Positions 35,085 to 60,803 of a DNA stretch of 60,930 nucleotides are shown piece by piece (positions within the stretch are counted from its first letter, which is position 1; every line of letters begins with the position of its first letter). The stretch covers positions 1 to 60,930 of IMG/VR virus record IMGVR_UViG_3300032164_000015; one strand, written 5' to 3'. This DNA comes from a virus. The notes under the pieces are model-generated. The model ran no database searches. It was not told where the DNA came from and saw only the letters and a program-made list of their open reading frames with translations. A program made the translations under genes and the position numbers.

Positions 35085-35113
35085 GGGACCTGCTCTCGCG
35101 CGTGCGGTAGAGT
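35085..35113 (+). promoter_or_regulatory. Possible leaderless promoter of the plus-strand island
   Basis: TAGAGT (35108-35113) five bases before the ATG at 35119, with a poor -35 (GGGACC, 35085-35090) 17 bases upstream. The position fits the leaderless pattern seen elsewhere in the right half. No ribosome site is present. Confidence 0.4.
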
Positions 35114-35118
35114 TGGGC

Positions 35119-35427
35119 ATGGCCTACTACTACGCGACCGTGCCCGGCGTGTTCCCAGTTCCCGACCCTGAGAAGGGACCGACCATCGTGTACAGCGCGC
35201 GCCTGCTGATGGAGCACGCGCTGTTCGACATGAAGGTTCAGGCGCAGCGCCTCGACGTGGCGTTCGACGGCACCCGAGCTTTCCGTACGGACGAGCTGTA
35301 CATGGCCCGATTTCAGAAAGATCAACTCGGCTACGTCATCGCGTTCGGCGACAAAAAGGTCTACTGGACGACGACGAATCCGGTAGGAGCTGATGCTGAG
35401 ACCGAAGCCAAATGGAGAGCGCTATGA
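35119..35427 (+). CDS. Hypothetical protein (102 aa)
   Basis: Mixed alpha/beta protein (YYYATVPGVFPVPDP; YVIAFGDKKVYWTTTNP). ATG at 35119 follows a -10 box by five bases, suggesting a leaderless message; an upstream in-frame start at 35044 would read through the promoter. Overlaps the next gene by ATGA. First gene of the membrane-protein island. Confidence 0.7.
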   Translation: MAYYYATVPGVFPVPDPEKGPTIVYSARLLMEHALFDMKVQAQRLDVAFDGTRAFRTDELYMARFQKDQLGYVIAFGDKKVYWTTTNPVGADAETEAKWRAL

Positions 35428-36035
35428 GCGTCGTTGCCTTCAAGCCGACCGCGAAGGACTTGTTCACGCGGTTCGAGGTGTTGTTCTGGAGCTTGTTCCT
35501 CGGCATTCCCACCGCCCTTGGTGTCGGTGCGCACCTGACGCCGCAAGATCCACCTGTGCCCTTCGTGGGCTGGGCGATTCTCTGGGCGGCTATCGGCGGC
35601 ATGTGGGGTGTCGCTGTTCTGTTCTTCATTCGCAGGTGGAAGCAGCTCAACCTGTACCGTTTTCGCATCGACCCGGTCGGACTGATGGTGGGCTGGAAAG
35701 AGGACAAGCACTGCGTGTCGGGTGAGATGGTCGAGCGCGAGCTGACCGCAGTCCTCGCGCGGCTGACTCCGACGTACCCCGAAGCCGCGAAGGCCCTCCG
35801 TGGCTGCGTCGTGGTGATGACCGAGCCCACGTTCATGTGCTGGCCGGGTCCGGGCTTCGTCGCGCGCAAGGTCGCGGGCGTGCAGGATGGTCAACTGATG
35901 TTCGTGGGTTGGCACGAAGATCTGAAGTCAAGTGCGTTGCAGCATGAGCTGGCGCATCGCGTGCTTCAGGTGTACGCGGGAGATCCAGTAGAGTCGGTCG
36001 CTCACGAGATGATGACGAAACTGGGTATCAGCTAG
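35424..36035 (+). CDS. Membrane protein with HExxH metalloprotease-like motif (203 aa)
   Basis: Two hydrophobic helices near residues 15-35 (FWSLFLGIPTALGVGAHL) and 48-68 (GWAILWAAIGGMWGVAVLFF) anchor it. The remaining soluble part ends with LQHELAHRVLQVYAGD and VAHEM, a zinc-binding HExxH and a third His. It may be a membrane-bound protease. ATG at 35424 has GGAG seven bases upstream and overlaps the previous stop. Position beside lipoprotein and coiled-coil membrane genes suggests a role at the envelope. Confidence 0.72.
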   Translation: MSVVAFKPTAKDLFTRFEVLFWSLFLGIPTALGVGAHLTPQDPPVPFVGWAILWAAIGGMWGVAVLFFIRRWKQLNLYRFRIDPVGLMVGWKEDKHCVSGEMVERELTAVLARLTPTYPEAAKALRGCVVVMTEPTFMCWPGPGFVARKVAGVQDGQLMFVGWHEDLKSSALQHELAHRVLQVYAGDPVESVAHEMMTKLGIS

Positions 36036-36045
36036 GAGACGGACG

Positions 36046-36327
36046 ATGGCGAAGAAGACGCGGAAGAGTTCAAAGCCAACCTCCAAGCCCAGCAGCGCCG
36101 CGATGGCTGCTGCTGAAGCGATGCTGGCCCCGCTGCGCGACCTGTTGGTCACTTCGGTCAAGCAGAACGAGCTGAACGCTCAGATGCTCACGGACTTGAA
36201 CGACCGCGTCGAGAAGCTGGCGGGGCAGCTCGACCAACTTCAGAAGATCGCCCCCGCCGATTCCAAGCTCCTCACCGAACCCGCCCCTGTCCCCGTTTCA
36301 TCCCTGCTCACCGAGTCCCCTCAATGA
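36046..36327 (+). CDS. Coiled-coil protein (93 aa)
   Basis: Lys/Ser-rich basic start, then a long amphipathic helix (residues 20-70) with heptad pattern, and a Pro/Val/Ser tail. AGGAG ribosome site. Could partner the neighbouring membrane coiled-coil protein. No family recognised. Confidence 0.65.
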   Translation: MAKKTRKSSKPTSKPSSAAMAAAEAMLAPLRDLLVTSVKQNELNAQMLTDLNDRVEKLAGQLDQLQKIAPADSKLLTEPAPVPVSSLLTESPQ

Positions 36328-36773
36328 CCGAAGAAGCTGCGCAGCCAACGTACGACAAGAAGAAGCTGTGGAAGCTACTCCTGCTCGTAGTGCCTGCGCT
36401 CATCTCCGGCGCGTCGAGCTATTTGAAGTCTCGGGCGGAAGCGACTGACCAAGCGAAGGCGACCTTCGAGCACATGGAGGCGGACATCGACGCCCTCCAA
36501 GAGGCCGTGTCCAAAGTCGTCGAAGTGAACTACGTGCAGTCAGCGGAAATCGTTGTGCTGAAAGAACAGCTCGAATCAGCGAACAAGCGCGCTGAAGCCG
36601 TGCATCACTGGGCTGCGCTTCCCGCACCGGCTGTTGCAAAGCCACCGCCCTCGGGCGTGAACATGGACTCTGCCGACATGGACGGCGTCCCGGACGGACC
36701 GAAGGCGGCCATTCGTCGCAACAAGCCGCAGAGCTTCGATGCCGTCTTGCAGAACTACAAGTCGAAGAAGTGA
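36324..36773 (+). CDS. Single-pass membrane coiled-coil protein, i-spanin-like (149 aa)
   Basis: One N-terminal membrane helix (about 15-35, LWKLLLLVVPALISGASSYL) followed by a long coiled coil (40-95) and a Pro-rich tail. This layout is that of inner-membrane spanin subunits, which bridge to an outer-membrane lipoprotein at lysis; such a lipoprotein is encoded next. Resemblance is structural, not by sequence family. Confidence 0.6.
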   Translation: MTEEAAQPTYDKKKLWKLLLLVVPALISGASSYLKSRAEATDQAKATFEHMEADIDALQEAVSKVVEVNYVQSAEIVVLKEQLESANKRAEAVHHWAALPAPAVAKPPPSGVNMDSADMDGVPDGPKAAIRRNKPQSFDAVLQNYKSKK

Positions 36774-36783
36774 GGGGGTTCAC

Positions 36784-37320
36784 ATGAAGCGCGCAATCTC
36801 TCTGGTCCTCGTGGTCGCTTTGTCCGGCGGCTGCGCGACGGTTCCTGCCCTCGCGCCGACGGTCGCCATCAACGTCGAAAAGCGGGTCGAAAGCCGACCC
36901 CTGCCGCCCGACCCCTCCACCGAGGCCCTGCCGCCCGGTACGCCTGCGGATGACTGGGTCCTGCCCTTGGAGGCGGGTTCATGCCTCGACAAGGCAGGAA
37001 AGGCCGTTCCCGGCGCTGTGGGGCCGTGTCCCAGCCTCAGCGGCATCTCCCTGAGCGAGTCTCGCGCCGCCCGAGCCAAGCTCTTCCAGATTCGCTACCC
37101 CGAACTGCGCCGCTTGTACGAGGCGGACCGTATGGTCTGGTCCGCGCACCGGGAGCTGTACGAAGAGCGCCTTCAGCAGGCCGACCAGAAGATTCGGGAC
37201 ATGCAGCCCAACTGGTTCGAGCGGCACGCGGTTCAACTTGGTGTGGTTGGAGGGTTCGTTCTCGGGGCCGCCCTGACGGTGAGCCTGACGTACGCGATTC
37301 ACCAAACCACCAAGCCGTAG
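36784..37320 (+). CDS. Lipoprotein with C-terminal membrane helix (178 aa)
   Basis: Signal peptide MKRAISLVLVVALSGGCATV with lipobox LSGGC; mature protein would start at the Cys (residue 18). A proline-rich stretch follows (30-60), then a helical region, and near the C-terminus a hydrophobic segment (LGVVGGFVLGAALTVSLTYA). ATG at 36784 is chosen because it opens the signal peptide; the longer frame from 36739 does not. With the preceding gene it could form a two-part spanin, although the C-terminal membrane helix is unusual for an o-spanin. Confidence 0.72.
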   Translation: MKRAISLVLVVALSGGCATVPALAPTVAINVEKRVESRPLPPDPSTEALPPGTPADDWVLPLEAGSCLDKAGKAVPGAVGPCPSLSGISLSESRAARAKLFQIRYPELRRLYEADRMVWSAHRELYEERLQQADQKIRDMQPNWFERHAVQLGVVGGFVLGAALTVSLTYAIHQTTKP

Positions 37321-37354
37321 GGTTGGATCTCTTTCGCTGGTTCTGGAGCTGGGT

Positions 37355-37672
37355 ATGTCCGCTTGTCTTCTCTGTGGCGCAGCCACGCAGTCTCTCACCG
37401 CCAATCGCCTGTGCCACCTGTGCGAGGTTCGCTGGCAAGACTCGCTGGAGTTCAAGCGCGCGGCCTACTTCGCGAAGCTGAAGCGAGAAGGTCCAGCAGC
37501 CGTCGCGTTCGCGGACTTTGTTTTCGGCAAGCAGAAGGAGCGGCAGGCGGACGAGGCAGAAGCGAAGAGCCCGGAGCGCAAGGCGGAGAAGGAAGCCGCT
37601 GAAGCGAAATGGGAGGCTGAGAAAAAGAACGGCGTGCTCGCACCGAAACCGTCGAAGCCCAACGGTGTCTAG
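37355..37672 (+). CDS. Zinc-knuckle protein with charged helical tail (105 aa)
   Basis: CLLCGAA and, 16 residues on, CHLCEVRW form a four-Cys zinc site; the rest is a Lys/Glu/Ala-rich helix. Ends in an ATGA-like convergent overlap with the minus-strand gene at 37669. Last gene of the plus-strand island. Confidence 0.7.
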   Translation: MSACLLCGAATQSLTANRLCHLCEVRWQDSLEFKRAAYFAKLKREGPAAVAFADFVFGKQKERQADEAEAKSPERKAEKEAAEAKWEAEKKNGVLAPKPSKPNGV

Positions 37673-37959
37673 GTCGGCTCCGCTTCCAGCTCGACGCTGA
37701 GCTTCTCCGACGCCAGCTTCCGGGCCTTGTCCAGAATGCGCGCCTGAGCGGGCTCGTCCTCGACCAGCTTCGTGACGTTGAGCATGACCATGTAGACCGC
37801 AAGGATGGCCGTCAGCTCCAGCTCGTCGTGCTCTGCGGGCGTCAGCAACTCCCCGCGCTGGCGCTGTGAGATTTCCAACCCCTTCGCGACGTTCACCCCA
37901 ACGAGGTCGCGATGGTACTTCGCGGCTGCGCGCTTCCGTTCGATGTACTTCGGTTGCAC
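37669..37959 (-). CDS. Hypothetical helical protein (96 aa)
   Basis: GTG at 37959 with a strong GGAGGG ribosome site decides the start over the longer frame to 38160, whose added part is Ser/Arg shadow. Helical with a possible membrane-facing helix (AILAVYMVMLNVTKLV). Last gene of the Ku operon. Confidence 0.68.
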   Translation of the reverse strand: MQPKYIERKRAAAKYHRDLVGVNVAKGLEISQRQRGELLTPAEHDELELTAILAVYMVMLNVTKLVEDEPAQARILDKARKLASEKLSVELEAEPT

Positions 37960-37975
37960 GAGAACCCTCCGAACG

Positions 37976-38200
37976 TCACTTAAGTCGGGTGAGCCCGACG
38001 AAGACGAGTCCCAAGCGAACTGACATCGTACCGTGCGAGAACAGATGCGTGACCTGCTCGACGCGATAGACGCCGAGCGGCAGTTGGTTCGCGTTGGTGG
38101 GCGGGTGACTCCAGTCGATGTACTCGCCTTGTCGAGGAAGCACCGAGTCTCGCAGGTCAAACGTGGTCTCGTTTTCAGCCGTTTCGAACGTGATGTTCAT
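37976..38200 (-). CDS. Hypothetical beta-rich protein (74 aa)
   Basis: Alternating strand pattern (NITFETAENETTFDL; GVYRVEQVTHLFSHGTMSV; LGLVFVGLTRL) suggests a small barrel. Overlaps the preceding gene (ATG within four bases of its stop). Member of the Ku operon; unknown function. Confidence 0.65.
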   Translation of the reverse strand: MNITFETAENETTFDLRDSVLPRQGEYIDWSHPPTNANQLPLGVYRVEQVTHLFSHGTMSVRLGLVFVGLTRLK

Positions 38201-38406
38201 TTGTTGTCTCCTTCAAAGTAGTACCGGGTCGCGGCGATCCGACGCCTTCGCGTTTGCTGCGTTGCCGTGTCGATCGCCTTCCGAAGGTTGGCAATTTGTC
38301 GCCGCACGGCAGTCAGATGTGCAGGCACCGCCTCTTGGTTCGAGGCGGCATCCTCCAACAGGTCGAGGATCTTCCTCGCTGAAATCGGAGACAGCTCCAC
38401 GTTCAT
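38197..38406 (-). CDS. Hypothetical helical protein (69 aa)
   Basis: ATG at 38406 overlaps the upstream stop (ATGA), which rules against the longer frame to 38517. Contains the helical ISARKILDLLEDAASNQ and a basic stretch (QTRRRRIAATRYYF). Ku operon member. Confidence 0.68.
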   Translation of the reverse strand: MNVELSPISARKILDLLEDAASNQEAVPAHLTAVRRQIANLRKAIDTATQQTRRRRIAATRYYFEGDNK

Positions 38407-39077
38407 GGCGCGCCTCCGATGCGGCGAACCACAGGTCCACCGTCGAACACGAGCTTCATGTCGTCGGGTAGGGTCTGTAGACCGCCCTTCTTGATGTCCG
38501 TCGCGCAGCCGACCCACAGCTCTTCGAGTACCTCCAGCGGAAGGCGGCTGTTCCGCCTCTCTTGGTGCAGCTCGGCATCCCAGACCTTCCGCGACATCCG
38601 CAACTCAGGCAGCAACTTGCCGTCCAGCCGCAGTTCCTTCCGCCCGCCGAAGCTGCTCTCCAGCGTGCGCAGCCAGACGCGAACCAGATCCGCTCGCACG
38701 CACTCCGCGTACTCAATGCTCGTACCGTAGGCGGAGTCCTCACCGCCCGCGACGAAGCACGCTTTCTCGAAAGGCTCGCGCGAACAGCTCAGCTCCAGCG
38801 CCTTCAGCAGCGCGCTCTGCTCCTCAGCGCGAGGCGTGCCGACCTCTGGCTTGAAGTGGACCTGCTTGTTCGAGCTGAAGCACTTGCCCGCGTGTCCCGG
38901 CAAGAGCGAGCACGAGTACGCGGTCACCGGCAAGAACCCTCCGCAGTACACACGCACGTCGAAGTAGCCGTCCGTGTGAGCGACCAGTCGCGTGCCCTCG
39001 CGTGCGCGCGCGAGGAGGAACAGCCGCAAGTCGTGGGCGAGCTTCTGTTCCTCAGGCGTACGGTCGTTGTCGTTCAT
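38403..39077 (-). CDS. Hypothetical protein (224 aa), Ku operon
   Basis: Cys and His residues are scattered (VYCGGFLP, YSCSLLPGHAGKCF, LELSCSREP, KACFV, YAECVRAD), of which the C-x3-PGHxGxC part looks like a small zinc knuckle. The C-terminal half is helical with VLEELWVGCATDIKKG. Overlaps the Ku gene by four bases. No family recognised. Confidence 0.65.
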   Translation of the reverse strand: MNDNDRTPEEQKLAHDLRLFLLARAREGTRLVAHTDGYFDVRVYCGGFLPVTAYSCSLLPGHAGKCFSSNKQVHFKPEVGTPRAEEQSALLKALELSCSREPFEKACFVAGGEDSAYGTSIEYAECVRADLVRVWLRTLESSFGGRKELRLDGKLLPELRMSRKVWDAELHQERRNSRLPLEVLEELWVGCATDIKKGGLQTLPDDMKLVFDGGPVVRRIGGAP

Positions 39078-39916
39078 GCGGTCTTCTTCGCCTTCTTGGC
39101 GGGCTTGGCTTCGGACTTCGCCTCAGGCTTAGCCGCGACCTTCGCGTCGAGGCTCGCCTTCAGGGCGGCCATCAAGTCGAGGACCGGGACCATCGCCTTC
39201 GTCGGCACCGCAATGGTGATGGGCTCACCCTTCACCTTCTGCTCGATGATGCTGCGCAGCTTCTCTTGGTGCTCATCCTTGTACTTGCCGGGCTCGAAGG
39301 CCGAGACCGCCTGCGCTTCGACGAGCTGCGTCGCCAATGCGACCTCAGCGGGAGTCACCTCGGTCTCGCCCAGCGGTACCTCAGCAGGGCTCCGCACTTC
39401 GTCGGCGTAGCGGAGCTGCTGCAAGGCCAGCCCGTCCCAGCCCGCGAGGGTCCGCACGACGGCGACGTGCTCGCGCCCGCGCGAGGCGTACCGGACCACC
39501 GCCGCGCGCTTGGTCTCGGACAGGGTCACCATGAGCAGCCGGAACGCCCGCTCCGCGCCCTTGTCTGGCCCGAGGAAGTAGAGGGTGTCGAGGTAGAGCG
39601 GGTCGATGCTCTCAGCCGGAACGAACTCCGCGATTTCCATCCGCTTGTCCGACTCGGGTTCGAGCGCCTTCAGCTCTTCCTCACTGAAGACGACGTACTG
39701 GTCCTTCGCGAACTCGTAGCCCTTGACGATGTTGTCCTTGGTGACGACTTCGCCGGTCTCCGGGTCGTACATCTGCTGCTTCAGGCGGGTCTTCTTCTCC
39801 GCGTGGAGCTGGTTGAAGCTGATCTTGGTGCTCGACTCGCTAGCCGAGTAGACCTTCACCGGGATGTTCACCAGACCGAAGGACAGCATGTTCGACTGCA
39901 TGGAGCGAAGGGCCAC
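39074..39916 (-). CDS. ku: Ku homologue, DNA-end-binding protein (280 aa)
   Basis: Bacterial-type Ku homodimer that encircles broken DNA ends for non-homologous end joining. Characteristic blocks: ALRSMQSNMLSFGLVNIPVK at the start (after GTG), SFNQLHAEKKTRLKQQMYDP, EIAEFVPAESIDPLYLDTLY, KGAERAFRLL, and an A-L-K-A bridge region before a lysine/alanine-rich tail (KPAKKAKKTA). Length matches bacterial Ku. Start GTG at 39916 with AAGGAG. No LigD or ATP-dependent ligase is visible in the window. Phage Ku is known from some mycobacteriophages, where it may circularise or protect the genome ends. Confidence 0.94.
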   Translation of the reverse strand: MALRSMQSNMLSFGLVNIPVKVYSASESSTKISFNQLHAEKKTRLKQQMYDPETGEVVTKDNIVKGYEFAKDQYVVFSEEELKALEPESDKRMEIAEFVPAESIDPLYLDTLYFLGPDKGAERAFRLLMVTLSETKRAAVVRYASRGREHVAVVRTLAGWDGLALQQLRYADEVRSPAEVPLGETEVTPAEVALATQLVEAQAVSAFEPGKYKDEHQEKLRSIIEQKVKGEPITIAVPTKAMVPVLDLMAALKASLDAKVAAKPEAKSEAKPAKKAKKTA

Positions 39917-39943
39917 GGTGGTTCTCCTTGAGGGTTATGAGGG

Positions 39944-39972
39944 TGTGATGTTGCGCGCCTCGTGATTGTCAA
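39944..39972 (-). promoter_or_regulatory. Promoter of the Ku operon
   Basis: Minus strand TTGACA (39972-39967) with a weak -10 ATCACA (39949-39944) 17 bases on; leader of about 25 bases containing AAGGAG. It drives Ku and four downstream genes. Confidence 0.5.
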
Positions 39973-39979
39973 CTCGACC

Positions 39980-40216
39980 TCAGAACCCCTTCGGCCAGAC
40001 GTTGTGCGTCGTGTGTTCCTGCATCACTGCGCGGAGCAGCTTCTGCACCTGCGCCCTTGAGACCTTCATCTCGTCAGCCGCCGCGTACATCGCGAGCATC
40101 AGCGCGTCGTCACTGCACTGGTGCCGGATGAGGTGTCGGGTGAAGGCGAGGAGGAGCGGGAACGCAATCGCCGGATCATCTCCTCTCGGTCGCGATTGAA
40201 AAGCGTGGACGAGCAC
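39980..40216 (-). CDS. Hypothetical protein overlapping the previous gene (78 aa)
   Basis: The C-terminal part (AIAFPLLLAFTRHLIRHQCSDD, MLAMYAAADEMKVSRAQVQKLL) looks like a genuine helical protein, possibly with a helix-turn-helix. The best start is GTG at 40216, giving 118 bases of overlap with the gene at 40099-40428. It may instead be the continuation of that gene after a frameshift near 40190, because the other frame's last 25 residues there are low-quality Ser/Pro/Arg. Confidence 0.5.
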   Translation of the reverse strand: MLVHAFQSRPRGDDPAIAFPLLLAFTRHLIRHQCSDDALMLAMYAAADEMKVSRAQVQKLLRAVMQEHTTHNVWPKGF

Positions 40217-41355: not shown

Positions 41356-42377
41356 GGCTTCCCGTCCTTCTTGGTCGTACCTTCGATGAGCTTCTCGGCC
41401 TTCTTCGTCTCAGGGAAAGTCAGCGGGGGCGGCTTGCCGTTCACTTCGGCCAGCTTCTGGATGCCCGACTCGACGATGGTGCTGTGGACGTAGGCTTCGA
41501 CCTCGGTCTTCGCCGCGTGGACCACCTTGTCCATGTGCTCGGCGAGCTGCTTCACCATGAACGGAGCGGAGTCCGACATCTTCCGCTGCGCCGTGCTCAG
41601 CGCGTCCAGCACCGCCTTGCGCTTCTCCTTCGTGGGCGACTTGTCGTCCACCAGCGCCTTCATCTGGGCCATCGCGTCCTCCATGAACTTCATCGCGTGC
41701 CGGGCGTCCTTCTCGATGTCGTCGTGGAAGCGCTCCACCTCCATCTGCTCCGGACAGCTCTCCATCGCCTTGCCGCCGACGTACTGAAGCGTGCAGGGCA
41801 CCCCGCCGCCCATGCCGACACTCGACACCATGTGAGCCCACTGAGCCTCGGAGAGCGCGACCTCGACCAGCCCGCCGTGGACTCCCCCGAAGTGCCAGTC
41901 ACGCCCATGCGAGCGCTGGCGCGTCGAGCGGCCAATGCTCAGGGTCATGTAGTGCTGGTGCTTGAAGGGCGACCCGAAGAGCGACGTGTGCCCCGAGACG
42001 CGGCTCACCTGCACGAAGCCGTAGGACGGGTGCGTCTCAGGCTCCCACTCTCCGAGCAGTTCAGCGCGCTCGTCCATCTTCGCCTTCCGCTGGACCTCGT
42101 AGACGTGGGCCTTTTCCTGCCACTCAGGAGGCAGGTCCACGACCGTGCGCACCTTGGCGAAGTCGATCTTCTTCACGTCGGCCATCTCGTACTCGCCCCG
42201 GAAGTAGTGCCCGTGGGAGACACCGCCGTCGGCGTCGATGAAGTCGTAGTTCACCGTGGTCGTGTCCGAGGTCGTTCCGTCACCTCCGACGCGAGTGATG
42301 AGCGCAGGCCGGTCCCCCACCGCAATGACATCGCCTTCCTTGAAACGCTGGTCTCGGTCCTGCCATTTTCTAGCCAT
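41352..42377 (-). CDS. Hypothetical phage protein with conserved GFVQVSR/SLFGS domain (341 aa)
   Basis: N-terminal beta-rich part (1-75). The central block, YGFVQVSRVSGHTSLFGS, then H-Q-H-Y-M-T-L-S-I-G-R-S and a Gly-rich V-G-M-G-G-G-V-P-C-T-L strand, is of a type I associate with uncharacterised phage proteins carried by many unrelated phages. The C-terminal 120 residues are a long helix, probably coiled coil. First gene behind the strong promoter at 42383-42411; only five bases separate the -10 box from its ATG. Confidence 0.72.
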   Translation of the reverse strand: MARKWQDRDQRFKEGDVIAVGDRPALITRVGGDGTTSDTTTVNYDFIDADGGVSHGHYFRGEYEMADVKKIDFAKVRTVVDLPPEWQEKAHVYEVQRKAKMDERAELLGEWEPETHPSYGFVQVSRVSGHTSLFGSPFKHQHYMTLSIGRSTRQRSHGRDWHFGGVHGGLVEVALSEAQWAHMVSSVGMGGGVPCTLQYVGGKAMESCPEQMEVERFHDDIEKDARHAMKFMEDAMAQMKALVDDKSPTKEKRKAVLDALSTAQRKMSDSAPFMVKQLAEHMDKVVHAAKTEVEAYVHSTIVESGIQKLAEVNGKPPPLTFPETKKAEKLIEGTTKKDGKP

Positions 42378-42382
42378 GCCCT

Positions 42383-42411
42383 GTCCTATCGGCAGGGATG
42401 GGGGTTGTCAA
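42383..42411 (-). promoter_or_regulatory. Leaderless-type promoter
   Basis: Minus strand TTGACA (42411-42406), 17-base spacer, TAGGAC (42388-42383), then five bases to the ATG at 42377. An interrupted inverted repeat (CCCTG...CAGGG) spans the -10. No Shine-Dalgarno site is possible in the transcript. Confidence 0.7.
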
Positions 42412-43367: not shown

Positions 43368-44104
43368 CACCGGTCCTCCTCCTCCTCTTCCGCTTCGTCG
43401 GTGTCGAAGTCGTAGTCGTCGTCTTCGGTCTTCTTCTTCTCGGCCTTGCGGCTCGCCTCCAGCGCGGCTGACAGCTTCTTCACCTGAAGCCACGAGAGGC
43501 GAATGGCAGCCGCCTCGGTGCGGTGCGAGAAGAAGTAGTCGAAGTACATCTTCAGCGAGAAGACGAAGTCGAACGCCTGCTCAGGCTTCATCTTGTCGAA
43601 GTCGAACTTCTTCTCCTTGAGGTACTGGACGAACTTCTTCAAGCCCTCGTCGAAGATGCGGTGGTCGTTGTCCACGCGAATCTTCCAGTCCTCTTCGAGC
43701 CAAATCCAAAGCCCGCGCTTACGCCCGTCGTCGGTGAGGAACAGCCGCACGTCGAAGAGGCTGTCCGGGTAGCGCAGCGCCAGCAAGGCATCCTTCGCTT
43801 GGTAGTGGCGATCCTTCTTCGCGGTCTTCTTCTCGCCCTTCTTCGGCTCGTGTTGAGGCTCAGGCATCACCTTCACCTGCGTCGTCACCATCACGACGCG
43901 CACCACCCCGCGTTCGAGCGAACCTGCCGACCAGCGTTGCGTGTCGATGTTCGCGTACTGGCGTGCCTGCTCAGCCGACAGGAACGTCTTGTAGACCGGC
44001 GACTCGTAGTCCGCTTCCGCCTTGGTTTCGTAGACGCGCTGCCACTTGCCGTCGCCCATCTTCTCTTCGAGCTGGTACTGAACGTCCTCGATCACGGTCT
44101 TCAC
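43367..44104 (-). CDS. Hypothetical protein with acidic C-terminus (245 aa)
   Basis: GTG at 44104 in a GTGA overlap with the receiver-like gene; a longer frame to 44449 is shadow. Alpha/beta N-terminal half (VVRVVMVTTQVKVMPEP), a tract of aromatic and charged residues (LWIWLEEDWKIRVDNDHRIF), and a very acidic tail (EAEEEEEDR). No motif recognised. Confidence 0.68.
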   Translation of the reverse strand: MKTVIEDVQYQLEEKMGDGKWQRVYETKAEADYESPVYKTFLSAEQARQYANIDTQRWSAGSLERGVVRVVMVTTQVKVMPEPQHEPKKGEKKTAKKDRHYQAKDALLALRYPDSLFDVRLFLTDDGRKRGLWIWLEEDWKIRVDNDHRIFDEGLKKFVQYLKEKKFDFDKMKPEQAFDFVFSLKMYFDYFFSHRTEAAAIRLSWLQVKKLSAALEASRKAEKKKTEDDDYDFDTDEAEEEEEDR

Positions 44105-44526
44105 GGCTTCACTCCAGTCCAGTCGTAGTCGAACACCCAGTTCACCGGCTTCATGTCGATCTTCACGAGGAAGTCCGTCATCATCGACGCGCCCACCTTG
44201 TTGCGGCTGTGAACCACCACCGTCCCCGGACGCGACTTCACCGGCATCTTCTTGATGTAGTAGGCCAAGTCGAGCCCATCGAGTTCCTTCCGGTTCGGGT
44301 GAACGTCGAGCCACTCGCGCAAGGTGTGGTCGCCGGGGTCGTGGACATCGAAGTCGAGGAAGAGGAAGTCGGCGCGCTTCTCGCGGAGCAGGTCGATGCC
44401 TTCCCGAATCACCTTGGTCTGTACGAGGTCGTGCGAAGGACCGAACCACGTCGCGAACCGGTCCAGCCGCGACTGCTTGTCCTCCAGCACGACGATGCGC
44501 TTCCCTACGGCTCGCAGTTCGGGCAC
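44101..44526 (-). CDS. Receiver-like protein, cREC type (141 aa)
   Basis: Response-regulator-like fold without a partner kinase. RIVVLEDKQSRLDRF supplies the acidic start, FLFLDFDVHDPG the central Asp, and TVVVHSRNKVGASMM the HSxNxxGAxxM block that marks the cyclic-phosphate-processing receiver (cREC) group. Canonical receivers have Thr/Ser and Lys here, so phosphotransfer is not expected; a phosphoesterase-like role is the published proposal for the group. GTG at 44526 overlaps the previous gene by 22 bases; a ribosome site is not obvious, so the start is uncertain. Confidence 0.7.
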   Translation of the reverse strand: MPELRAVGKRIVVLEDKQSRLDRFATWFGPSHDLVQTKVIREGIDLLREKRADFLFLDFDVHDPGDHTLREWLDVHPNRKELDGLDLAYYIKKMPVKSRPGTVVVHSRNKVGASMMTDFLVKIDMKPVNWVFDYDWTGVKP

Positions 44527-45020
44527 CAGAACGTCGAGAATTGGAAGAGGACCACGTTCTTGTTCGACCCGCCGCAGCAGAGACAGACCTTTGAAGTCGA
44601 GTTGTTCTCCACCGGGGCCTTTGGCTGCCCGTTTTTCCTCAGCGCGGGCGGCTTCGAGGGCGTGGCCCCAAGCGTGGGCGATTTCGCGGGGCTCTTCGTC
44701 GAGGGGGAGGTCAAGTTCCCGGCAGACGGAGGCGAGCTGTTCGAGGAATCCGGGGGAGCGAACGGGAGCCCGTCGTTTCTCACCTCGGTGGGCGTCATCT
44801 CCCGTCGGTAGCCGCTGTCGTCGCTTACGTTCTTTGAACGCTTCCCAGTTGCTGACCACGATGCCCCGCTCGTTTTTCTCTCGATTTCCCATGACTTGAT
44901 CTCCACGATGTTGACCCCGGCAGGCGTCAGAGCCTCGACGTAAACCAGCTTCTTCGCGCCGCCCGAGTCCGTGCCCTTGTAGTAGGCCCCCGGCTTCAAA
45001 TCCTTGTAGGCGATTCCCAT
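44505..45020 (-). CDS. Zinc-ribbon protein with disordered middle (171 aa)
   Basis: N-terminal small beta barrel (GIAYKDLKPGAYYKGTDSGG, VNIVEIKSWEIE), then about 80 residues rich in Ser/Pro/Asn, and a C-terminal ribbon with CLCCGGSN and WCPNCEP. ATG at 45020 lies six bases after a -10 box, so a leaderless message is predicted. First gene of a seven-gene operon. Confidence 0.72.
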   Translation of the reverse strand: MGIAYKDLKPGAYYKGTDSGGAKKLVYVEALTPAGVNIVEIKSWEIERKTSGASWSATGKRSKNVSDDSGYRREMTPTEVRNDGLPFAPPDSSNSSPPSAGNLTSPSTKSPAKSPTLGATPSKPPALRKNGQPKAPVENNSTSKVCLCCGGSNKNVVLFQFSTFWCPNCEP

Positions 45021-45026
45021 AGTAGC

Positions 45027-45055
45027 GTAGTAGGAGGAGGGGTAGGGATTGTCAA
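45027..45055 (-). promoter_or_regulatory. Leaderless-type promoter
   Basis: Minus strand TTGACA (45055-45050), 17-base spacer, TACTAC (45032-45027), six bases to the ATG at 45020. A clean consensus -35. Confidence 0.7.
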
Positions 45056-48391: not shown

Positions 48392-48417
48392 GTGCCGCCT
48401 CCAGAAAGTGATGCCCG

Positions 48418-48446
48418 TTATCATCAGCAGGGGTCTCGATTGTCAA
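48418..48446 (-). promoter_or_regulatory. Divergent promoter, minus arm
   Basis: TTGACA (48446-48441), 17-base spacer, TGATAA (48423-48418), leader of about 26 bases with GGAGG before the ATG at 48391. Back-to-back with the plus-strand promoter; the two -35 boxes form a perfect 8-base inverted repeat TTGTCAAC/GTTGACAA. Confidence 0.72.
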
Positions 48447-48460: not shown

Positions 48461-48488
48461 TTGACAACCGCCCGTCCGCCGATATGAC
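48461..48488 (+). promoter_or_regulatory. Divergent promoter, plus arm, leaderless type
   Basis: TTGACA (48461-48466), 16-base spacer, TATGAC (48483-48488), six bases to the ATG at 48495. No room for a ribosome site. Confidence 0.72.
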
Positions 48489-48494
48489 CGCCCC

Positions 48495-48806
48495 ATGCCT
48501 ACCAAGCCGAAGACCGTCGAAGTGGTGGTGTACCGGGTCGGAAAGCCTGCTCGCGTCGAGGCGATTCCGGACACCCTCGAAGCCCAGCAAGCCATCGTCG
48601 GCGGGGACATCAAGGACTGCATCCTCGACCACCTCACCGTCATCTACGGAGCGGAGGCGGCGGACACGGGCCAGCCGCCGAACCGGCAGGTTGGCCGCAT
48701 CTTCGTGCTCGGCAACTTCTTCATCTGCCGCACGGACGAAGAGGGCTGCACCGCGCCGCTCACGAAGAAGGACCGCGCCTTCCTGAAGAAGAACTACGCT
48801 CTCTGA
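48495..48806 (+). CDS. DUF3846-type protein (103 aa)
   Basis: Small protein with the DUF3846 pattern: EAQQAIVGGDIKDCILD, then LTVIYGAEA, GQPPNRQV and IFVLGNFFICRTDEEG. The family is spread among phages and plasmids and its function is unknown. Translation probably starts on a leaderless message from the promoter just upstream. Confidence 0.8.
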   Translation: MPTKPKTVEVVVYRVGKPARVEAIPDTLEAQQAIVGGDIKDCILDHLTVIYGAEAADTGQPPNRQVGRIFVLGNFFICRTDEEGCTAPLTKKDRAFLKKNYAL

Positions 48807-49666: not shown

Positions 49667-49671
49667 GCCCG

Positions 49672-49699
49672 GTACTGTTCTGGGGTCAGCCGTTGTCAA
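49672..49699 (-). promoter_or_regulatory. Leaderless-type promoter, weak -10
   Basis: Minus strand TTGACA (49699-49694), 16-base spacer, CAGTAC (49677-49672), five bases to the ATG at 49666. It overlaps the stop of the next gene upstream. Confidence 0.55.
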
Positions 49700-52504: not shown

Positions 52505-52510
52505 GCGAAG

Positions 52511-52539
52511 CTAATATCAACAGGCTAAGCGATTGTCAT
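52511..52539 (-). promoter_or_regulatory. Leaderless-type promoter
   Basis: Minus strand ATGACA (52539-52534), 17-base spacer, TATTAG (52516-52511), six bases to the ATG at 52504. AT-rich -10 stands out in the GC-rich surroundings. Confidence 0.7.
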
Positions 52540-53283: not shown

Positions 53284-53300
53284 GATGTCTCCCCACCAAC

Positions 53301-53818: not shown

Positions 53819-54048
53819 CGACTGCTGCGGGCCTGTCGGTTCAACTCGTCGAGCGTGGCGGAGGGCGAATCGACGGTCCGGTTGAAGCAGCTCCGGTGCA
53901 GCACCGCCCATTCCTTCTTCTCGACGTTGCGACCCTTCTGCATCTTGCCTGCCGCAATTCGACGGGTTTCATCCCCGTCCACGATGGGCTTTCCGCAGCC
54001 ACCGCAGCGAACTGTTGCCTCTGGCATGTTGTTGGTCTCCGGCTTCAT
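53815..54048 (-). CDS. Small zinc-type protein (77 aa)
   Basis: CGGCGKPIVDGDE followed by a basic region and LHRSCFNR, giving a C-C-H-C style site. ATG at 54048 is eight bases after a promoter -10 (54057-54062); an in-frame ATG at 54027 is an alternative. The GTG at 54096 lies upstream of that promoter. Confidence 0.65.
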   Translation of the reverse strand: MKPETNNMPEATVRCGGCGKPIVDGDETRRIAAGKMQKGRNVEKKEWAVLHRSCFNRTVDSPSATLDELNRQARSSR

Positions 54049-54056
54049 GGTTGCGG

Positions 54057-54085
54057 AACCTACGGCGACGGCCCCGAGTTTGCAA
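54057..54085 (-). promoter_or_regulatory. Promoter, near-leaderless
   Basis: Minus strand TTGCAA (54085-54080), 17-base spacer, TAGGTT (54062-54057), eight bases to the ATG at 54048. A TTGACC further upstream (54118-54113) is a weaker alternative -35. Confidence 0.5.
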
Positions 54086-55318: not shown

Positions 55319-55327
55319 GGTGCCTCC

Positions 55328-55642: not shown

Positions 55643-55868
55643 GGGTCACCTCCGCAGGTTTCGGTTTCGGGTAGTCGTCCCAGATGGAGTGCCGCTCTTC
55701 CTTCGGGCAGCAGTACGCGCACGCCTGCCCGCCGCCGAGCTTCCGCTTGCGCCAGACCGCGTGCCAGCTACAGAGCACTGCGCCGCACTTCTCGCAGAGG
55801 AAGCCCGCCCAGCCCTTGCAGCGGACCTGCTTTTCCGTGATGCCGACGCACTGCGCTTTCGGAGTCAC
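55635..55868 (-). CDS. Small zinc-type protein (77 aa)
   Basis: CVGITEKQVRCKGWAGFLCEKC, CSWHAVW and CAYCC give six or more cysteines, probably two metal sites. GTG at 55868 in a GTGA overlap with the SEC-C gene. The third GGACCGCACGGTCC copy lies 28 bases upstream, inside the end of that gene. Confidence 0.72.
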   Translation of the reverse strand: MTPKAQCVGITEKQVRCKGWAGFLCEKCGAVLCSWHAVWRKRKLGGGQACAYCCPKEERHSIWDDYPKPKPAEVTHA

Positions 55869-56401
55869 TGGAGGATGACCTTGTCCTTCAGGCTCGGGAC
55901 CGTGCGGTCCTCAGGAGGAGCGCCATCGTTCGCGCGGAGCTTGTCGCCCCAGAAGCACGGGCAGTATTCCTCGACGGGCGGATCCTCGATTTCGTGGCTG
56001 CCCCGGTTGGCGCAGCACGCGCAGTCGGCCTCGACCGTGCGGTCGCCGGTCACCTTGCAGGCGTTCTCGCCTTCGAGCACGACGAACTTCGTCGGGTCGC
56101 GGGGAGGCGTGAGGGCCTCCTTGAAGATGAGCTTCTCGAAGGTGCGCTGGACCACCGGGCTCTTCAGGCGCGCCTTGATGTTGGAGAAGATCTCCTCAGC
56201 AGAGACCTCGCCTGTGAGCTTCAGCGCCTGCACCGCGTGCGTCGGAACGTGCTTCGCGTCGCGCGCCACGCAGAGCAGGTACATCGTCAGCTCGGGAGCC
56301 CAGCCCTCCTTGAGCGGCTGGATGCAGCACTCGCTGTAGAGCTTCCCCGACTTGCAGGGGCAGGGGTCCGTCACCAACAGCCGCTTCACGTCATCGACCA
56401 T
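55865..56401 (-). CDS. SEC-C motif protein (178 aa)
   Basis: N-terminal DPCPCKSGKLYSECC is a textbook SEC-C zinc motif (CxCxSGxxxxxCC) as at the end of SecA and in many small proteins. The middle is helical. A second Cys group, CKVTGDRTVEADCACCANRG, and CPCFWG follow. ATG at 56401, one base after the previous stop. Two copies of the ACCG-x-x-CGGT palindrome core lie in its coding sequence. Confidence 0.82.
   Translation of the reverse strand: MVDDVKRLLVTDPCPCKSGKLYSECCIQPLKEGWAPELTMYLLCVARDAKHVPTHAVQALKLTGEVSAEEIFSNIKARLKSPVVQRTFEKLIFKEALTPPRDPTKFVVLEGENACKVTGDRTVEADCACCANRGSHEIEDPPVEEYCPCFWGDKLRANDGAPPEDRTVPSLKDKVILQ
55897..55910. repeat. 14-bp near-palindrome, copy 3 of 3
   Basis: Same GGACCGTGCGGTCC as at 2026 and 23860, here inside the SEC-C coding sequence and 28 bases before the start of the gene at 55868. 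A related CGACCGTGCGGTCG lies at 56032-56045. Confidence 0.7.
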
Positions 56402-56402
56402 G

Positions 56403-56810
56403 TCACTTCTCCTTCAGGGCCTTCGCGACCAGTTTCTCGAACGAGAAGGTCTTCTTGGGCTCAGGTTTCCGGTTCGGGTTTCGGTGCTGCTTGTACAGCT
56501 CCAACATCTTCTTCACGTCCTCGGGGTCCTTGAAGCGCTGACGACCGCGCTCCAAGTCGCTCAGCTCGGAGGGCCGCAGACCAAGCAGCTCGCCGCCAGT
56601 TCCGAAAGTCAGGTCGGTGGTCTTCCGCGCCTGCCGCAGGGCCTCGCCCGCCGCCACGTCCTGCTCGGAGTAGACCGGCAGGTTCACGAACTTCCATTCG
56701 TGGGGCTTGTCGCCCTTGTTCAGGTGGCAGAAGGACTCGCGCTCGCCCACCGGTTCGTTGGGGACGAGTTTTCCGACGGGTTGGCGCTTCGCGGACTTGG
56801 ACTTGGGCAT
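56403..56810 (-). CDS. XRE-like helix-turn-helix protein (135 aa)
   Basis: Residues 55-95 (EALRQARKTTDLTFGTGGELLGLRPSELSDLERGRQ) match a Cro/C1-type helix-turn-helix, including SxLSxxExGR-like turn. The ends are basic (KSKSAKRQ; RKPEPKKTFSFEK). A regulator candidate for the recurring palindromes. ATG at 56810 with only a weak ribosome site. Confidence 0.75.
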   Translation of the reverse strand: MPKSKSAKRQPVGKLVPNEPVGERESFCHLNKGDKPHEWKFVNLPVYSEQDVAAGEALRQARKTTDLTFGTGGELLGLRPSELSDLERGRQRFKDPEDVKKMLELYKQHRNPNRKPEPKKTFSFEKLVAKALKEK

Positions 56811-56814
56811 TGGG

Positions 56815-57297
56815 TTAATGCTTCAGGGGTGGGACTTCATCGAGGTGACTGGCGTGGGCTTCAGCTTCGTGGCGGACGCGCATCATCATGTGGCGCAGCC
56901 CGTGGAGGAACTTCTCCAGCGGTACTGGGGCGCGGCACGTCGGGTCTTCGCAGCCCTTGCGATGGCCGGTGACGGCCTCCTCCAGACCCAGATGCTGGGC
57001 CTGCTGCATGGAGTGAAAGACCGACGTGGGGTTGACGCCGAAGTTGATGACGGCGACGCCGCTCTGGAAGCCCGCGCGCCCGGCGTAGCCGTCGGCGAGG
57101 AAGCGCAGGAGGTCGAGAGCCGCCGCCTGCGCCTGCTCCTCTTCCTCGGGCAGCGCCGTGGCGGCCTTCTCAATCAGCTCGGAGATGAGGTCGTCCGACC
57201 TTTCGAGGAGAGCGACCAGTTCTTCGAAGGGAGCGCCGTAGTGGGCCTTCAGGCTCTGCACCAGCTTCACCGCGTGCTCCGCGCGCTCGTCACTCAT
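56815..57297 (-). CDS. Hypothetical helical protein (160 aa)
   Basis: Acidic helical N-terminal two-thirds; the C-terminal part has HRKGCEDPTCRAP and a His-rich helix (HMMMRVRHEAEAHASH) that could bind metal. ATG at 57297. The 148-base gap upstream (57298-57445) holds two inverted TGATCAAC words about 60 bases apart but no convincing promoter. Confidence 0.68.
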   Translation of the reverse strand: MSDERAEHAVKLVQSLKAHYGAPFEELVALLERSDDLISELIEKAATALPEEEEQAQAAALDLLRFLADGYAGRAGFQSGVAVINFGVNPTSVFHSMQQAQHLGLEEAVTGHRKGCEDPTCRAPVPLEKFLHGLRHMMMRVRHEAEAHASHLDEVPPLKH

Positions 57298-57445
57298 CGG
57301 TCGCCTCTCTGTGGGGAAATGTAGGACAACCCTGCCAGACCTTCCCAGTTTCTGGCTCGGAGGGTGATCGCCAGATGATCAACACCAGCCGATTTCCGAA
57401 GCGGAAGGCTAGCGGTGGCGGGAGTTTGCGAGGCGGGGAGGTTGA

Positions 57446-57919
57446 TCACTTGAGAGTCTCCGCAGCCCACATCTTCCGCTTGCTCCACGGAGCCACGAGG
57501 CCACCTTTGTCCCCCGCTCGCCGTCTCTTTGGGTGGAAGCGCTCGCGCTTCGCGCACTGCCGACACGACAGCTTGTCGCCGAGGCCATCCATCGAAACGC
57601 CAGCGGTGTTACCGCAAAGTGTTCGGAGACCGACGATGTTGACCTGCCGGTTCCGTGATTCCACTTCGGTCAGGTGAACGTCGTTTCCGAACTTGGTCAT
57701 CACTCGCATGTAGAAGCGCTCGGACGTGAGCTGCATCTCCGGCGCTGAAGTCCAGAGGTCGCCGCGCTGCTCCGCGAACCCGAGCTTCACCAGCTTCTCC
57801 ATGACGCGCAGAAGGGTGGGCTCTTGGTTGTCGGGGAACTCCGAACAGAGGTCGCGCGGGGACGGCATCTCTTCTCGGAAGTTCAGCCACGAGAGCACGT
57901 TCAACTCCAGCCGGGTCAT
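57446..57919 (-). CDS. Winged-helix protein with zinc-type end (157 aa)
   Basis: First 60 residues (RLELNVLSWLNFREEMPSPR, LLRVMEKLVKLGFAEQ) look like a winged helix. Near the C-terminus CGNTAGVSMDGLGDKLSCRQC offers a Cys site, then a basic tail. ATG at 57919 in an ATGA overlap fixes the start. Possible transcription factor. Confidence 0.7.
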   Translation of the reverse strand: MTRLELNVLSWLNFREEMPSPRDLCSEFPDNQEPTLLRVMEKLVKLGFAEQRGDLWTSAPEMQLTSERFYMRVMTKFGNDVHLTEVESRNRQVNIVGLRTLCGNTAGVSMDGLGDKLSCRQCAKRERFHPKRRRAGDKGGLVAPWSKRKMWAAETLK

Positions 57920-58347
57920 GGGGCCTTCTCCGGCAGCGAGTAGTCGGTGAACCACAGGCTGGCGAGGTACGCGACCGCCGCCTTCTTGTGCTCGTGCTTC
58001 GGCTCGAAGCTCCCCTGAATGCACTGGAGGTGGCGCAGCGCCATCTCGGCGTCGATGCCCTCCACCCTTCCGAACTCCACGCCTGCGAGGCCCGAGAAGA
58101 ACCACGTCGTCTGGAACTGCCTCCACTTCCGACCGACCGCACTGGAGAGCGAGTCGTCCTTGAACTCGTCGGGGATGGCTTCCCACGGAGGCATCAGCGG
58201 CAGCGCACGCGCCGGGAACGCGAGCTGAAGCTGACTCACCGGCACGGGCTTCAGAAGCTTGAGGTCGAGCCGGGGCTCGTTGTCGCTCACCGGGAGGTGG
58301 TCCTTCCGCTCCGCAGCCCGCCGACTCTTCCGATTCGCCTTCACCAT
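57916..58347 (-). CDS. Hypothetical protein (143 aa)
   Basis: Basic N-terminus (VKANRKSRRAAERK), proline-rich linker, and helical C-terminal region with WRQFQTTWFFSGLAGVEFG. Overlaps both neighbours. No family recognised. Confidence 0.68.
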   Translation of the reverse strand: MVKANRKSRRAAERKDHLPVSDNEPRLDLKLLKPVPVSQLQLAFPARALPLMPPWEAIPDEFKDDSLSSAVGRKWRQFQTTWFFSGLAGVEFGRVEGIDAEMALRHLQCIQGSFEPKHEHKKAAVAYLASLWFTDYSLPEKAP

Positions 58348-59189
58348 GAGAGCACCTTGAGAGGGGCGCTGTGCTTTCCCTCGTGTTCGGGTTCGAGCGT
58401 GCAGCGCACGCGCTCACCGTGCCCAGATCCACCCCACTCAGCACCACAGAGCTTCGGATGTTCCGCCCGATACTCACGAGTGCTGAGCGCGGTGGCGACC
58501 AGCGCCGACAGCGCGCGCGCCTCGTCCGAGCCCGCCGTGTACAGCGACATCACCTTGAGCGCGTCCCTTCCGAAGTCCTTCAACTGCTTCAGAAGCAATC
58601 GCGCTTCCTCGCGCGCCGCATCGCGCTCCAGCATGAAGCGCTCGTCGTTCTCCGCCTTGGCCTTCTTGTACGCGTCGCGCTCGTTCTTCAGAAGCTCGAT
58701 GGAGGACCACACGTCCGCGTACCCGGCCTCGCGCGGGCCGACCATCTCCGCCAAGTCTTGGAACCCCTTCTCCGCCGCCTTGAGCTGGTGTTCGACCTGC
58801 TCCGCGTAGACGGTCATCTTCGCGAGCATTGCTTTCGCGGTTTCAAGATCCAACGGCGCACCTGCGAGCTGTGCCGCCGTGGGCTGCTGAATCTCGCGCG
58901 CCGACTGCGGAAGTCCTACCAGCCGGTCGATGATTTTCTGCTTGGTGGTCGGTTCCTTCGGAGGGGCACCGCCGTGACCCGCCGGACGCAGATCCGCCGC
59001 CGCAGCGTGGCGCAGCGCGTCCGCACCAGTCATGGTGCCCGGCTGTCGCTCAGTCTCTTTGCCGCAGGTCTCGCACCGGAAAATCCACTCCCGCTTGCCG
59101 GGCACCTCTGCACCGGTCGCATCGGTCTCGACCGTCACATTGATGCTCGGCATCCACGGTTTGGGGTGAGCGCAGCGGGTCTCGGACAT
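58341..59189 (-). CDS. Zinc-type N- and C-terminal protein with central coiled coil (282 aa)
   Basis: N-terminal CAHPKPW and FRCETCGKETE form a zinc site; the middle 140 residues are a coiled coil; the C-terminus has LCGAEWGGSGHGERVRCTLEPEHEGKH-type Cys/His residues. ATG at 59189 follows a -10 box by six bases. First gene of a three-gene operon. Confidence 0.72.
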   Translation of the reverse strand: MSETRCAHPKPWMPSINVTVETDATGAEVPGKREWIFRCETCGKETERQPGTMTGADALRHAAAADLRPAGHGGAPPKEPTTKQKIIDRLVGLPQSAREIQQPTAAQLAGAPLDLETAKAMLAKMTVYAEQVEHQLKAAEKGFQDLAEMVGPREAGYADVWSSIELLKNERDAYKKAKAENDERFMLERDAAREEARLLLKQLKDFGRDALKVMSLYTAGSDEARALSALVATALSTREYRAEHPKLCGAEWGGSGHGERVRCTLEPEHEGKHSAPLKVLSW

Positions 59190-59195
59190 GGGGCT

Positions 59196-59225
59196 CTCTT
59201 AAACGCAAGGGATAGCGATAGTCAA
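59196..59225 (-). promoter_or_regulatory. Leaderless-type promoter
   Basis: Minus strand TTGACT (59225-59220), 18-base spacer, TAAGAG (59201-59196), six bases to the ATG at 59189 (or TTAAGA with a 17-base spacer). Confidence 0.65.
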
Positions 59226-59229
59226 TCGC

Positions 59230-59559
59230 TTACGGCTTTGTGGCGAGCAGCGCAGACAGCATCCGGGGCTCCAGCTTCAGAAGTTCTTCGCGCGAATCCG
59301 GGGAAACGCTGGGAGACCGGCTGAGCACGGCGACGAAGGGAGCCAGCGCCATCAGCACTTCACGCACTTCCAGCAGCGCGTCCAGCTTCGCCCGCAGCTT
59401 GTCGTAGTCGTCGAGCCGTTGGTGGGTTGCGACCGAGGGCAGGGACGCGAGCCACGCGTACTCCAGCTCGTCGATGAGCTTGTGCTCGATGAACAGCTCC
59501 GAGCGGCAGACGCGCAGCAGGTCCAGCATCCGTTGGTTCTCGATTGGTTTGTTCGACAT
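59230..59559 (-). CDS. Hypothetical helical protein (109 aa)
   Basis: ATG at 59559 with GAGG eight bases before. Helical throughout, with LRVCRSELFIEHKLIDELEY and a long second helix pair. It lies between two promoter-led genes; its own promoter is not clear. Confidence 0.68.
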   Translation of the reverse strand: MSNKPIENQRMLDLLRVCRSELFIEHKLIDELEYAWLASLPSVATHQRLDDYDKLRAKLDALLEVREVLMALAPFVAVLSRSPSVSPDSREELLKLEPRMLSALLATKP

Positions 59560-59632
59560 GTCAGCGCCTCGCGTACATCGCACGCTCCACTGCTTTGTTT
59601 GAAAACCGAAAATTCCGAGGGCTCCGGGTGGA

Positions 59633-60769
59633 TCAATCGCGCTCGTCGCACTCGGGGTAGTGCTGACAGGGGTCCTTGCAGCAGTTGTCGCAGACCGGCA
59701 GCTTGACGTGCCCTGCGTTGCTCGTGAGGTACTTGCACCACGGCTTGTGGGGGTCCTTCAGGTTGTAGAGGTTGCACGATGGACAGAGGGATTTGTCGTC
59801 GTGGTTGAAGTTCTCAGGACGCGTGGGCTTTGAGATCCGCTCGACCTCCGCCGCCTTCTCCACGAAGCCGGGAAAGGCGTTCGTGATTTGAAGCGGGACG
59901 TAGGGTGCCCAGATGTGCCCGGCCTTCATTGCTTCGCGCAGCTCCTCTTCCGTCGGAGGTCGCCCGGCCCACGGAATCGCGAAGGGGCTCCCGGCCAGAG
60001 GGTTCTCGACGTGGTTCCGCTCGAAGAGCCGGTTCAGCTCGTTCGCAAGCCGCTCCCGCACCTCCGGGGGTCCATCAGGGGTGGCCTCGTGCGCGGAGGG
60101 CGTGAAGCGGGCCGCGAACTCAGCCACGTTCCGCTCGGCCTCCATCAGCAGGGTGAGCTGGGACAGGGTCAACCCGGTCTTGAGGGCGAGCTTCTGGAGC
60201 CGCCTCAGGGCGAAGCCGGTGCTCAGGACGCCTCCGAGTAGCTCCGCGACGCTTTCAGAGGCTGGCGGGCCTTCTGGGGGCCTTGGGAGGGCTGATTCGG
60301 GGGCCTCTGGGATGGGATTCGCCGACACCTTGGCCACCTCGGGCGCACGGAGGGCCTCGTTGGCGTCCGTCACAGGCTCTCCACGCTCCTCCGGAGGGGT
60401 TGGAGCGACAACAGCCGACGTGACCGACCGCACCGCCCGCACGACCGCAGCGACCGGCTGCTCTTTCGGCTCCTCCGCAGGGGGCAGGGTCAGGGTGGTC
60501 AGCTTGCAGGTCGGGCAGAAGAAGGTCCGGGTCCACGGGTCGAAGTTGGTGGGCTCGAAGGGCAGGTCGCAGAGGGGGCAGCACCAGTGACGCGTGGGGA
60601 GGGCAGCCTCGGCTCGGGCCACGTCCTTCTCGTGCAGCTCCGCGAAGAACTGGCGGGTGCTCGCGCAGATGTCCTTGGGGCAGGTCTCCATCAGCCCCGC
60701 GTGGTCCGCGTGGTAGGCGCGATGCACCGTCTGCATCAGCCACCGAATCATCTCGTGGGAGTCGGTCAT
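59633..60769 (-). CDS. Multi-zinc-site protein (378 aa)
   Basis: Three Cys groups: RHWCCPLCDLPFE with FFCPTCKL (about 62-88), LCPSCNLYNL (about 330), and CDNCCKDPCQHYPEC at the end. The middle has a disordered Pro/Ala region (95-175) and helices. Leaderless start: the ATG at 60769 lies six bases after a -10 box. Function unknown; the size and Cys sites suggest a nucleic-acid or host-protein binder. Confidence 0.75.
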   Translation of the reverse strand: MTDSHEMIRWLMQTVHRAYHADHAGLMETCPKDICASTRQFFAELHEKDVARAEAALPTRHWCCPLCDLPFEPTNFDPWTRTFFCPTCKLTTLTLPPAEEPKEQPVAAVVRAVRSVTSAVVAPTPPEERGEPVTDANEALRAPEVAKVSANPIPEAPESALPRPPEGPPASESVAELLGGVLSTGFALRRLQKLALKTGLTLSQLTLLMEAERNVAEFAARFTPSAHEATPDGPPEVRERLANELNRLFERNHVENPLAGSPFAIPWAGRPPTEEELREAMKAGHIWAPYVPLQITNAFPGFVEKAAEVERISKPTRPENFNHDDKSLCPSCNLYNLKDPHKPWCKYLTSNAGHVKLPVCDNCCKDPCQHYPECDERD

Positions 60770-60775
60770 TCGGGC

Positions 60776-60803
60776 TTTGTATCGGCAGCCCTGCGGTTGT
60801 CCA
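60776..60803 (-). promoter_or_regulatory. Leaderless-type promoter
   Basis: Minus strand TGGACA (60803-60798), 16-base spacer, TACAAA (60781-60776), six bases to the ATG at 60769. The remaining 127 bases to the right edge show no gene. Confidence 0.65.

Follow-up and report, generated by a model that had tools for sequence, protein, structure and literature searches.

Predicted leaderless transcription from sigma-70-type promoters at a set of gene starts in an uncultured phage

Published work indicates that 70S ribosomes bind leaderless mRNAs at a 5'-terminal AUG (PMC9031893). More than 20% of the genes are leaderless in Actinobacteria and Deinococcus-Thermus, where TA-led genes carry a TANNNT hexamer about 6 to 7 bases before the open reading frame (ORF), lack a Shine-Dalgarno (SD) site, and start with ATG or GTG (PMC3160421, PMC12340547, PMC4633059); an earlier, sequence-only reading of the DNA studied here had noted that such starts are common in some bacterial groups. 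Among phages, the middle and late mRNAs of phiYS40 were reported to be mostly leaderless (PMC3594737). For Cluster O mycobacteriophages, Corndog and its relatives, predicted leaderless promoters PL1 and PR2 and a Ku-like protein have been described (PMC4351075). Here, we describe gene starts closely preceded by a promoter in IMG/VR record IMGVR_UViG_3300032164_000015 (60,930 bases, 62% GC; referred to as the window), which belongs to an uncultured virus that appears, from its gene content, to be a tailed phage. We propose, with a probability of about 0.85, that in this phage at least eight transcription units are driven by host-type sigma-70/sigma-A promoters that would give leaderless mRNAs. 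The promoters would combine the consensus TTGACAATC, a spacer of about 17 bases, and a TANNNT -10 box separated from the start codon by 5 to 8 bases, most often 6. RNA polymerase would initiate at the A of the ATG or within 1 to 2 bases of it. Transcription starting at that A would yield an mRNA devoid of an SD site, and a ribosome, probably a 70S ribosome, would bind to its 5'-terminal AUG. We infer the true 5' ends, initiation by 70S ribosomes, and efficient translation of leaderless mRNA by the host.

Promoters were identified with a generic sigma-70 matrix, untrained on this phage, by scoring -35/-10 pairs ending 5 to 8 bases upstream of a start; the percentage given below for each site is the fraction of window positions with an equal or higher score. 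Over the 94 gene starts called in the window, 1, 5, 1, and 3 matches in the top 0.1% were found at -10-to-start distances of 5, 6, 7, and 8 bases, respectively, for about 0.09 expected per distance, one gene being allowed to count at several distances. Counted per gene, 7 of 94 starts passed, in comparison to 2 of 951 internal in-frame ATG or GTG codons (Fisher p, 1e-6) and 8 of 2179 other ATG or GTG codons of the window (p, 8e-7 versus gene starts). One of the latter eight matches was the start at 45020, which the gene caller had put in a different frame, and the count for the window is therefore eight. Thus, no fewer than eight such starts are predicted in the window, one of them at position 1983. 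A TANNNT-like -10 box about 10 to 12 bases before the start codon was also commoner than chance. Among reference phages, full-promoter matches at 5 to 8 bases were absent from lambda and from Streptomyces phage R4, and a single one was found in each of Rhizobium phage RHph_I4 and Thermus phage P23-45.

The arrangement recurred in relatives of the window phage present in IMG/VR, which comprise G001 (about 89% identity in aligned DNA) and many distant relatives. A peak at 6 bases was detected in G017 (8 of 90 genes passing, 0.1 expected) and in G013 (22 of 263 genes, 0.4 expected), with smaller numbers of starts in G001 (2), G003 (5), G011 (5), and G012 (4), the last three also showing an excess. 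These relatives are not independent, although near-identical upstream regions were removed. The distance of 6 bases was the most frequent among the pooled starts (34 of 55), and the pooled consensus was TTGACA-ATC...TANNNT with a 17-base spacer. The alternative that AT-rich hexamers occur before ATG codons by chance in a 62% GC genome and were picked by eye would account for the start at 35119, which is at chance level (1.6% of the positions score as high). As an explanation of the class it is ruled out by the enrichment over internal starts (p ~1e-6) and by replication in relatives, and Rhizobium phage RHph_I4, scored likewise, showed no peak at 6 bases; we give it practically no weight.

SD matches of 4 or more bases were present at only 2 of 7 such starts in the window versus 72 to 76% of the other starts, and at none of 8 in G017 versus 67% of the others; in both genomes, most starts of the class lack an SD site. 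The start codon was ATG in 7 of 7 starts of the window and in 50 of 55 pooled starts, the remainder being GTG. The base at position -1, which is not used by the score, was a pyrimidine at 40 of 52 such starts (pooled and de-duplicated, from nine phages) versus 355 of 703 other ATG starts (p, 0.00025). This excess is expected if transcription starts at the A of the ATG, because the usual initiator consists of a pyrimidine at -1 followed by a purine at +1.

The sequence-only reading had listed nine starts with a -10 box 5 to 8 bases upstream (35119, 42377, 45020, 48495, 49666, 52504, 54048, 59189, and 60769), most of them with a TTGACA-like -35 box 16 to 18 bases before the -10 box. Reading of the sequences confirmed this description, and seven of the nine starts ranked in the top ~0.1% of positions. 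Upstream of gene 42377-41352 (PHROG 6452 family), the predicted leaderless promoter (42378..42411, minus strand; score 9.2, top 0.08%) consists of TTGACA (42406-42411), a 17-base spacer, and TAGGAC (42383-42388) located 5 bases before the ATG. In G001, both boxes and the distance to the ATG are unchanged and the spacer differs. The promoter of ORF 45020-44505 (45021..45055, minus strand; TTGACA-17-TACTAC-6-ATG) scores 10.5 (top 0.02%) and reads TTGACA-17-TAATAC-6-ATG in G001, in which the 171-amino-acid product is 80% identical. This ORF shares 388 bases with ORF 44892-44101 in a different frame (window 44101-45020, minus strand), and both ORFs are conserved in G001. The substitution pattern in comparison to G001 favors neither of them; conservation of the start and of the promoter favors 45020 as a real gene start.

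The promoter predicted upstream of the DUF3846 gene (48495-48806, PF12957) lies on the plus strand (48461..48494; TTGACA-16-TATGAC-6-ATG) and has a score of 11.1 (top 0.01%). Gene 52504-51965 is preceded by ATGACA-17-TATTAG-6-ATG (52505..52539, minus strand; score 10.0, top 0.04%), and its counterpart in G001 by ATGACA-17-TAGAGC-6-ATG, the -10 box having changed at a constant distance. The promoter of gene 54048-53815 (54049..54085, minus strand; TTGCAA-17-TAGGTT-8-ATG; score 9.8, top 0.05%) would be leaderless or nearly so; distant homologues of this gene (41 to 43% identity) do not reach the N terminus. For gene 59189-58341, the candidate promoter is TTGACT-18-TAAGAG-6-ATG (59190..59225, minus strand; score 9.0, top 0.09%), with an alternative 17-base spacing to TTAAGA, and no homologue was found among the relatives' loci compared. 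Gene 60769-59633, for which no homologue was found in IMG/VR, is preceded by TGGACA-16-TACAAA-6-ATG (60770..60803, minus strand; score 8.7, top 0.1%). The promoter of gene 49666-49454 (49667..49699, minus strand; TTGACA-16-CAGTAC-5-ATG) is a probable one: G001 has kept the -35 box, the overall length, and AACAG.AC.GGGC-ATG, although its spacer differs by 3-base indels that compensate each other. Thus, the geometry linking the -35 box, the -10 box, and the ATG is stable at 42377, 45020, and 49666 in comparison to G001 while the spacers drift. At 35119, a -10-like box (TAGAGT, 35108..35118, plus strand) lies 5 bases before the ATG, and the last 14 bases before this codon are identical in G001.

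Several observations weigh against leaderless transcription. The transcript 5' ends are deduced here from sequence alone, and genes were called with home-made software, their start codons not being curated. In G011 and G012, SD scarcity is less evident, with a 4-base match at 3 of 5 and 2 of 4 starts, respectively, and G005 and G018 have one such start each, which is about chance. Start 49666 has a poor -10 box (1.2% of the positions score as high), and 35119 has no -35 box (score 4.3) and is not accepted as a full promoter. At 42377, an AGGA sequence overlapping the -10 box, 6 bases before the ATG, could act as an SD site if transcription began further upstream. That AGGA, together with the 8 bases at 54048, which allow a leader of 1 to 2 bases, would fit an alternative explanation with genuine promoters but with translation beginning downstream, or with transcript 5' ends located farther upstream than proposed, implying short leaders or another type of non-SD initiation. 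We consider this unlikely, since the N termini encoded from the proposed ATGs are conserved in relatives (42377, 45020, 49666, 52504, 35119, and 1983), the distance distribution is sharply peaked at 6 bases instead of being spread, and the pyrimidine signal at -1 points to the A of the ATG. Leaderless transcription is well supported for the class predicted here, by the statistics, SD scarcity, the -1 base, and the relatives, with the exception of 35119. The assertion of the sequence-only reading that no ribosome site can exist was slightly too strong with respect to 42377 and 54048. Start 35119 should leave the list of leaderless starts, and 1983 should join it.

The start at 1983, which the earlier list did not include, is the strongest case of a conserved arrangement of the predicted leaderless type. 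The promoter (1984..2018, minus strand; TTGGAG-17-TACCAT-6-ATG) precedes gene 1983-1267 (PHROG 35167, a family with no assigned function), located between the DNA polymerase A gene (3923-2067) and an ORF with ATPase motifs, which it overlaps by 4 bases. A TANNNT hexamer was found 5 to 8 bases before a possible ATG or GTG start of this gene in 17 of 23 distinct relatives, versus 5 of 162 comparisons when all remaining window genes with relatives and at least 100 amino acids were considered. The hexamers vary between orthologues (TACCAT, TAGAGT, TAGGGT, TAGAAT, TATGAT, TACACT, TAGACT, TAAGCT, and others), and there are exceptions, such as L022/L024 and L012, that have an SD site instead. The neighboring ORF (2-1270, minus strand), open at the left edge of the window, contains an ALLDE motif and a Walker A motif (GSIGYGKT). 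Neither this ORF nor gene 1983-1267 is named as a terminase by any Pfam or PHROG family. A low-confidence structure model of the 1983 product gave a weak fold match to the small terminase of phage G20c. Judging from gene order, Walker A/B motifs, and this weak match, 1983-1267 and 1270-2 probably encode the small and large terminases, respectively.

Promoters of the same type also drive genes that have a leader and an SD site. The -35 box TTGACAAT is carried by the SD-led genes 21648, 39916, and 48391. Upstream of the ATG at 21648 (21649..21697, minus strand), TTGACA-17-TACGCT precedes a leader with an SD-like GAAGGA, an organization conserved in G001. Gene 48391-47594 has a promoter of the TTGACAATCGA -35 type (48392..48446, minus strand), a leader, and the SD sequence TGGAGG; this promoter diverges from the plus-strand promoter at 48461, and the divergent pair is kept in G001. 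Orthologues can switch between the two states. In both the window and G003, the DUF3846 gene shows the leaderless arrangement; in G001, the promoter equivalent to that of 48495 is followed by a different gene in this arrangement, and the DUF3846 gene comes next, with AAGGTGA before its ATG. The 42377 family shows the same arrangement in the window and in G001, and G003 has the same promoter type followed by a leader with AAGGAGG. Since SD-led and leaderless genes share promoters and orthologues switch, a single promoter type serves both modes. A separate promoter class, or the regulon of a phage sigma factor, is rejected because SD-led genes share the consensus, and the Pfam matches obtained for the scanned window proteins include no sigma factor. 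Leaderless and leader-plus-SD initiation would thus be two interchangeable ways to start the first gene of a transcription unit.

The leaderless genes might in addition form a functional class adapted to initiation factors or ribosomes shifted by the phage, as in phiYS40, whose infection was reported to raise IF2 and to lower IF3 (PMC3594737) along with its mostly leaderless middle and late transcripts. This proposal, which adds a purpose to leaderless initiation and does not replace it, would be consistent with the leaderless arrangement of the polA-adjacent, probably packaging, operon in most relatives. It is doubtful in view of the identical promoter consensus of SD-led genes and of the switching of orthologues, and the window proteins searched included no recognizable initiation factor, ribosome nuclease, or sigma factor. 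It is similarly improbable that selection has maintained leaderless initiation of the polA-adjacent operon, probably a terminase operon, throughout the lineage because infection alters the host initiation machinery, with the set constituting a regulated translational class.

Other features of the window include genes for a UvsX/RecA-like protein (20329-18806) and a DnaB-like helicase (28110-26773). A Ku-family protein, unusual in a phage, is encoded at 39074-39916 (minus strand; PF02735, E 3.5e-52). An ORF of 2128 amino acids (6264-12650, minus strand) has no PHROG match. The Pfam survey of window proteins also revealed a zeta-toxin-like domain, a KhpA/B-type KH domain, a uracil-DNA glycosylase, and MerR and ParB-like domains. 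A T4-like capsid protein (Gp23) and a portal are encoded by G017, a distant relative. No tRNA was predicted in the window; the distant relatives G011 and G012 have tRNA arrays (in L093 and L101) with 35 and no fewer than 22 predicted genes, respectively. The host search by DNA polymerase profile gave only distant matches, to four bacterial contigs, three of which are metagenome-assembled genomes, and the search by phage proteins gave matches of less than 40% identity scattered over many hosts.

A TANNNT hexamer about 6 bases before the ATG offers a simple, checkable signature for correcting start codon calls in uncultured phages. The sizeable predicted leaderless set suggests that the host translates leaderless mRNA efficiently. 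Orthologues switching between a -10 box at the start and a leader with an SD site provide natural experiments on the interchange of the two modes.

The class recognized by the sequence-only reading is real, but it is less singular to one phage than had been thought, since it also occurs in several uncultured relatives and its 6-base spacing is shared by phiYS40 and lambda cI. In lambda, cI is transcribed from PRM with TAGATT-TAACGT-ATG, the spacing found in the window; this concerns a single gene, whereas the window phage has a class. In phiYS40, tested on annotated starts instead of home-made gene calls, 9 TANNNT hexamers were found at 6 bases for 2.3 expected. In both phages, a -10 box thus immediately precedes the start codon, with a TANNNT peak at 6 bases. 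They differ in that phiYS40 has 32% GC, a known host, reported transcripts, and a reported IF2/IF3 shift, whereas the window phage has 62% GC and a clear TTGACAATC -35 box, is known from its sequence alone, and has no known initiation factor shift. The Cluster O phages resemble the window phage by their Ku-like protein; two predicted leaderless promoters are named for them, and the 36- to 60-kb part of the window has no near DNA match among 50,697 phage records. In Actinobacteria and Deinococcus-Thermus, leaderless genes belong to host chromosomes and make up a larger fraction of the genes than the ~8 to 9% of the window phage. The arrangement is thus of the known TA-led, leaderless kind, and what is new is how extensive it is, and how deeply it is conserved, within a lineage of uncultured phages.

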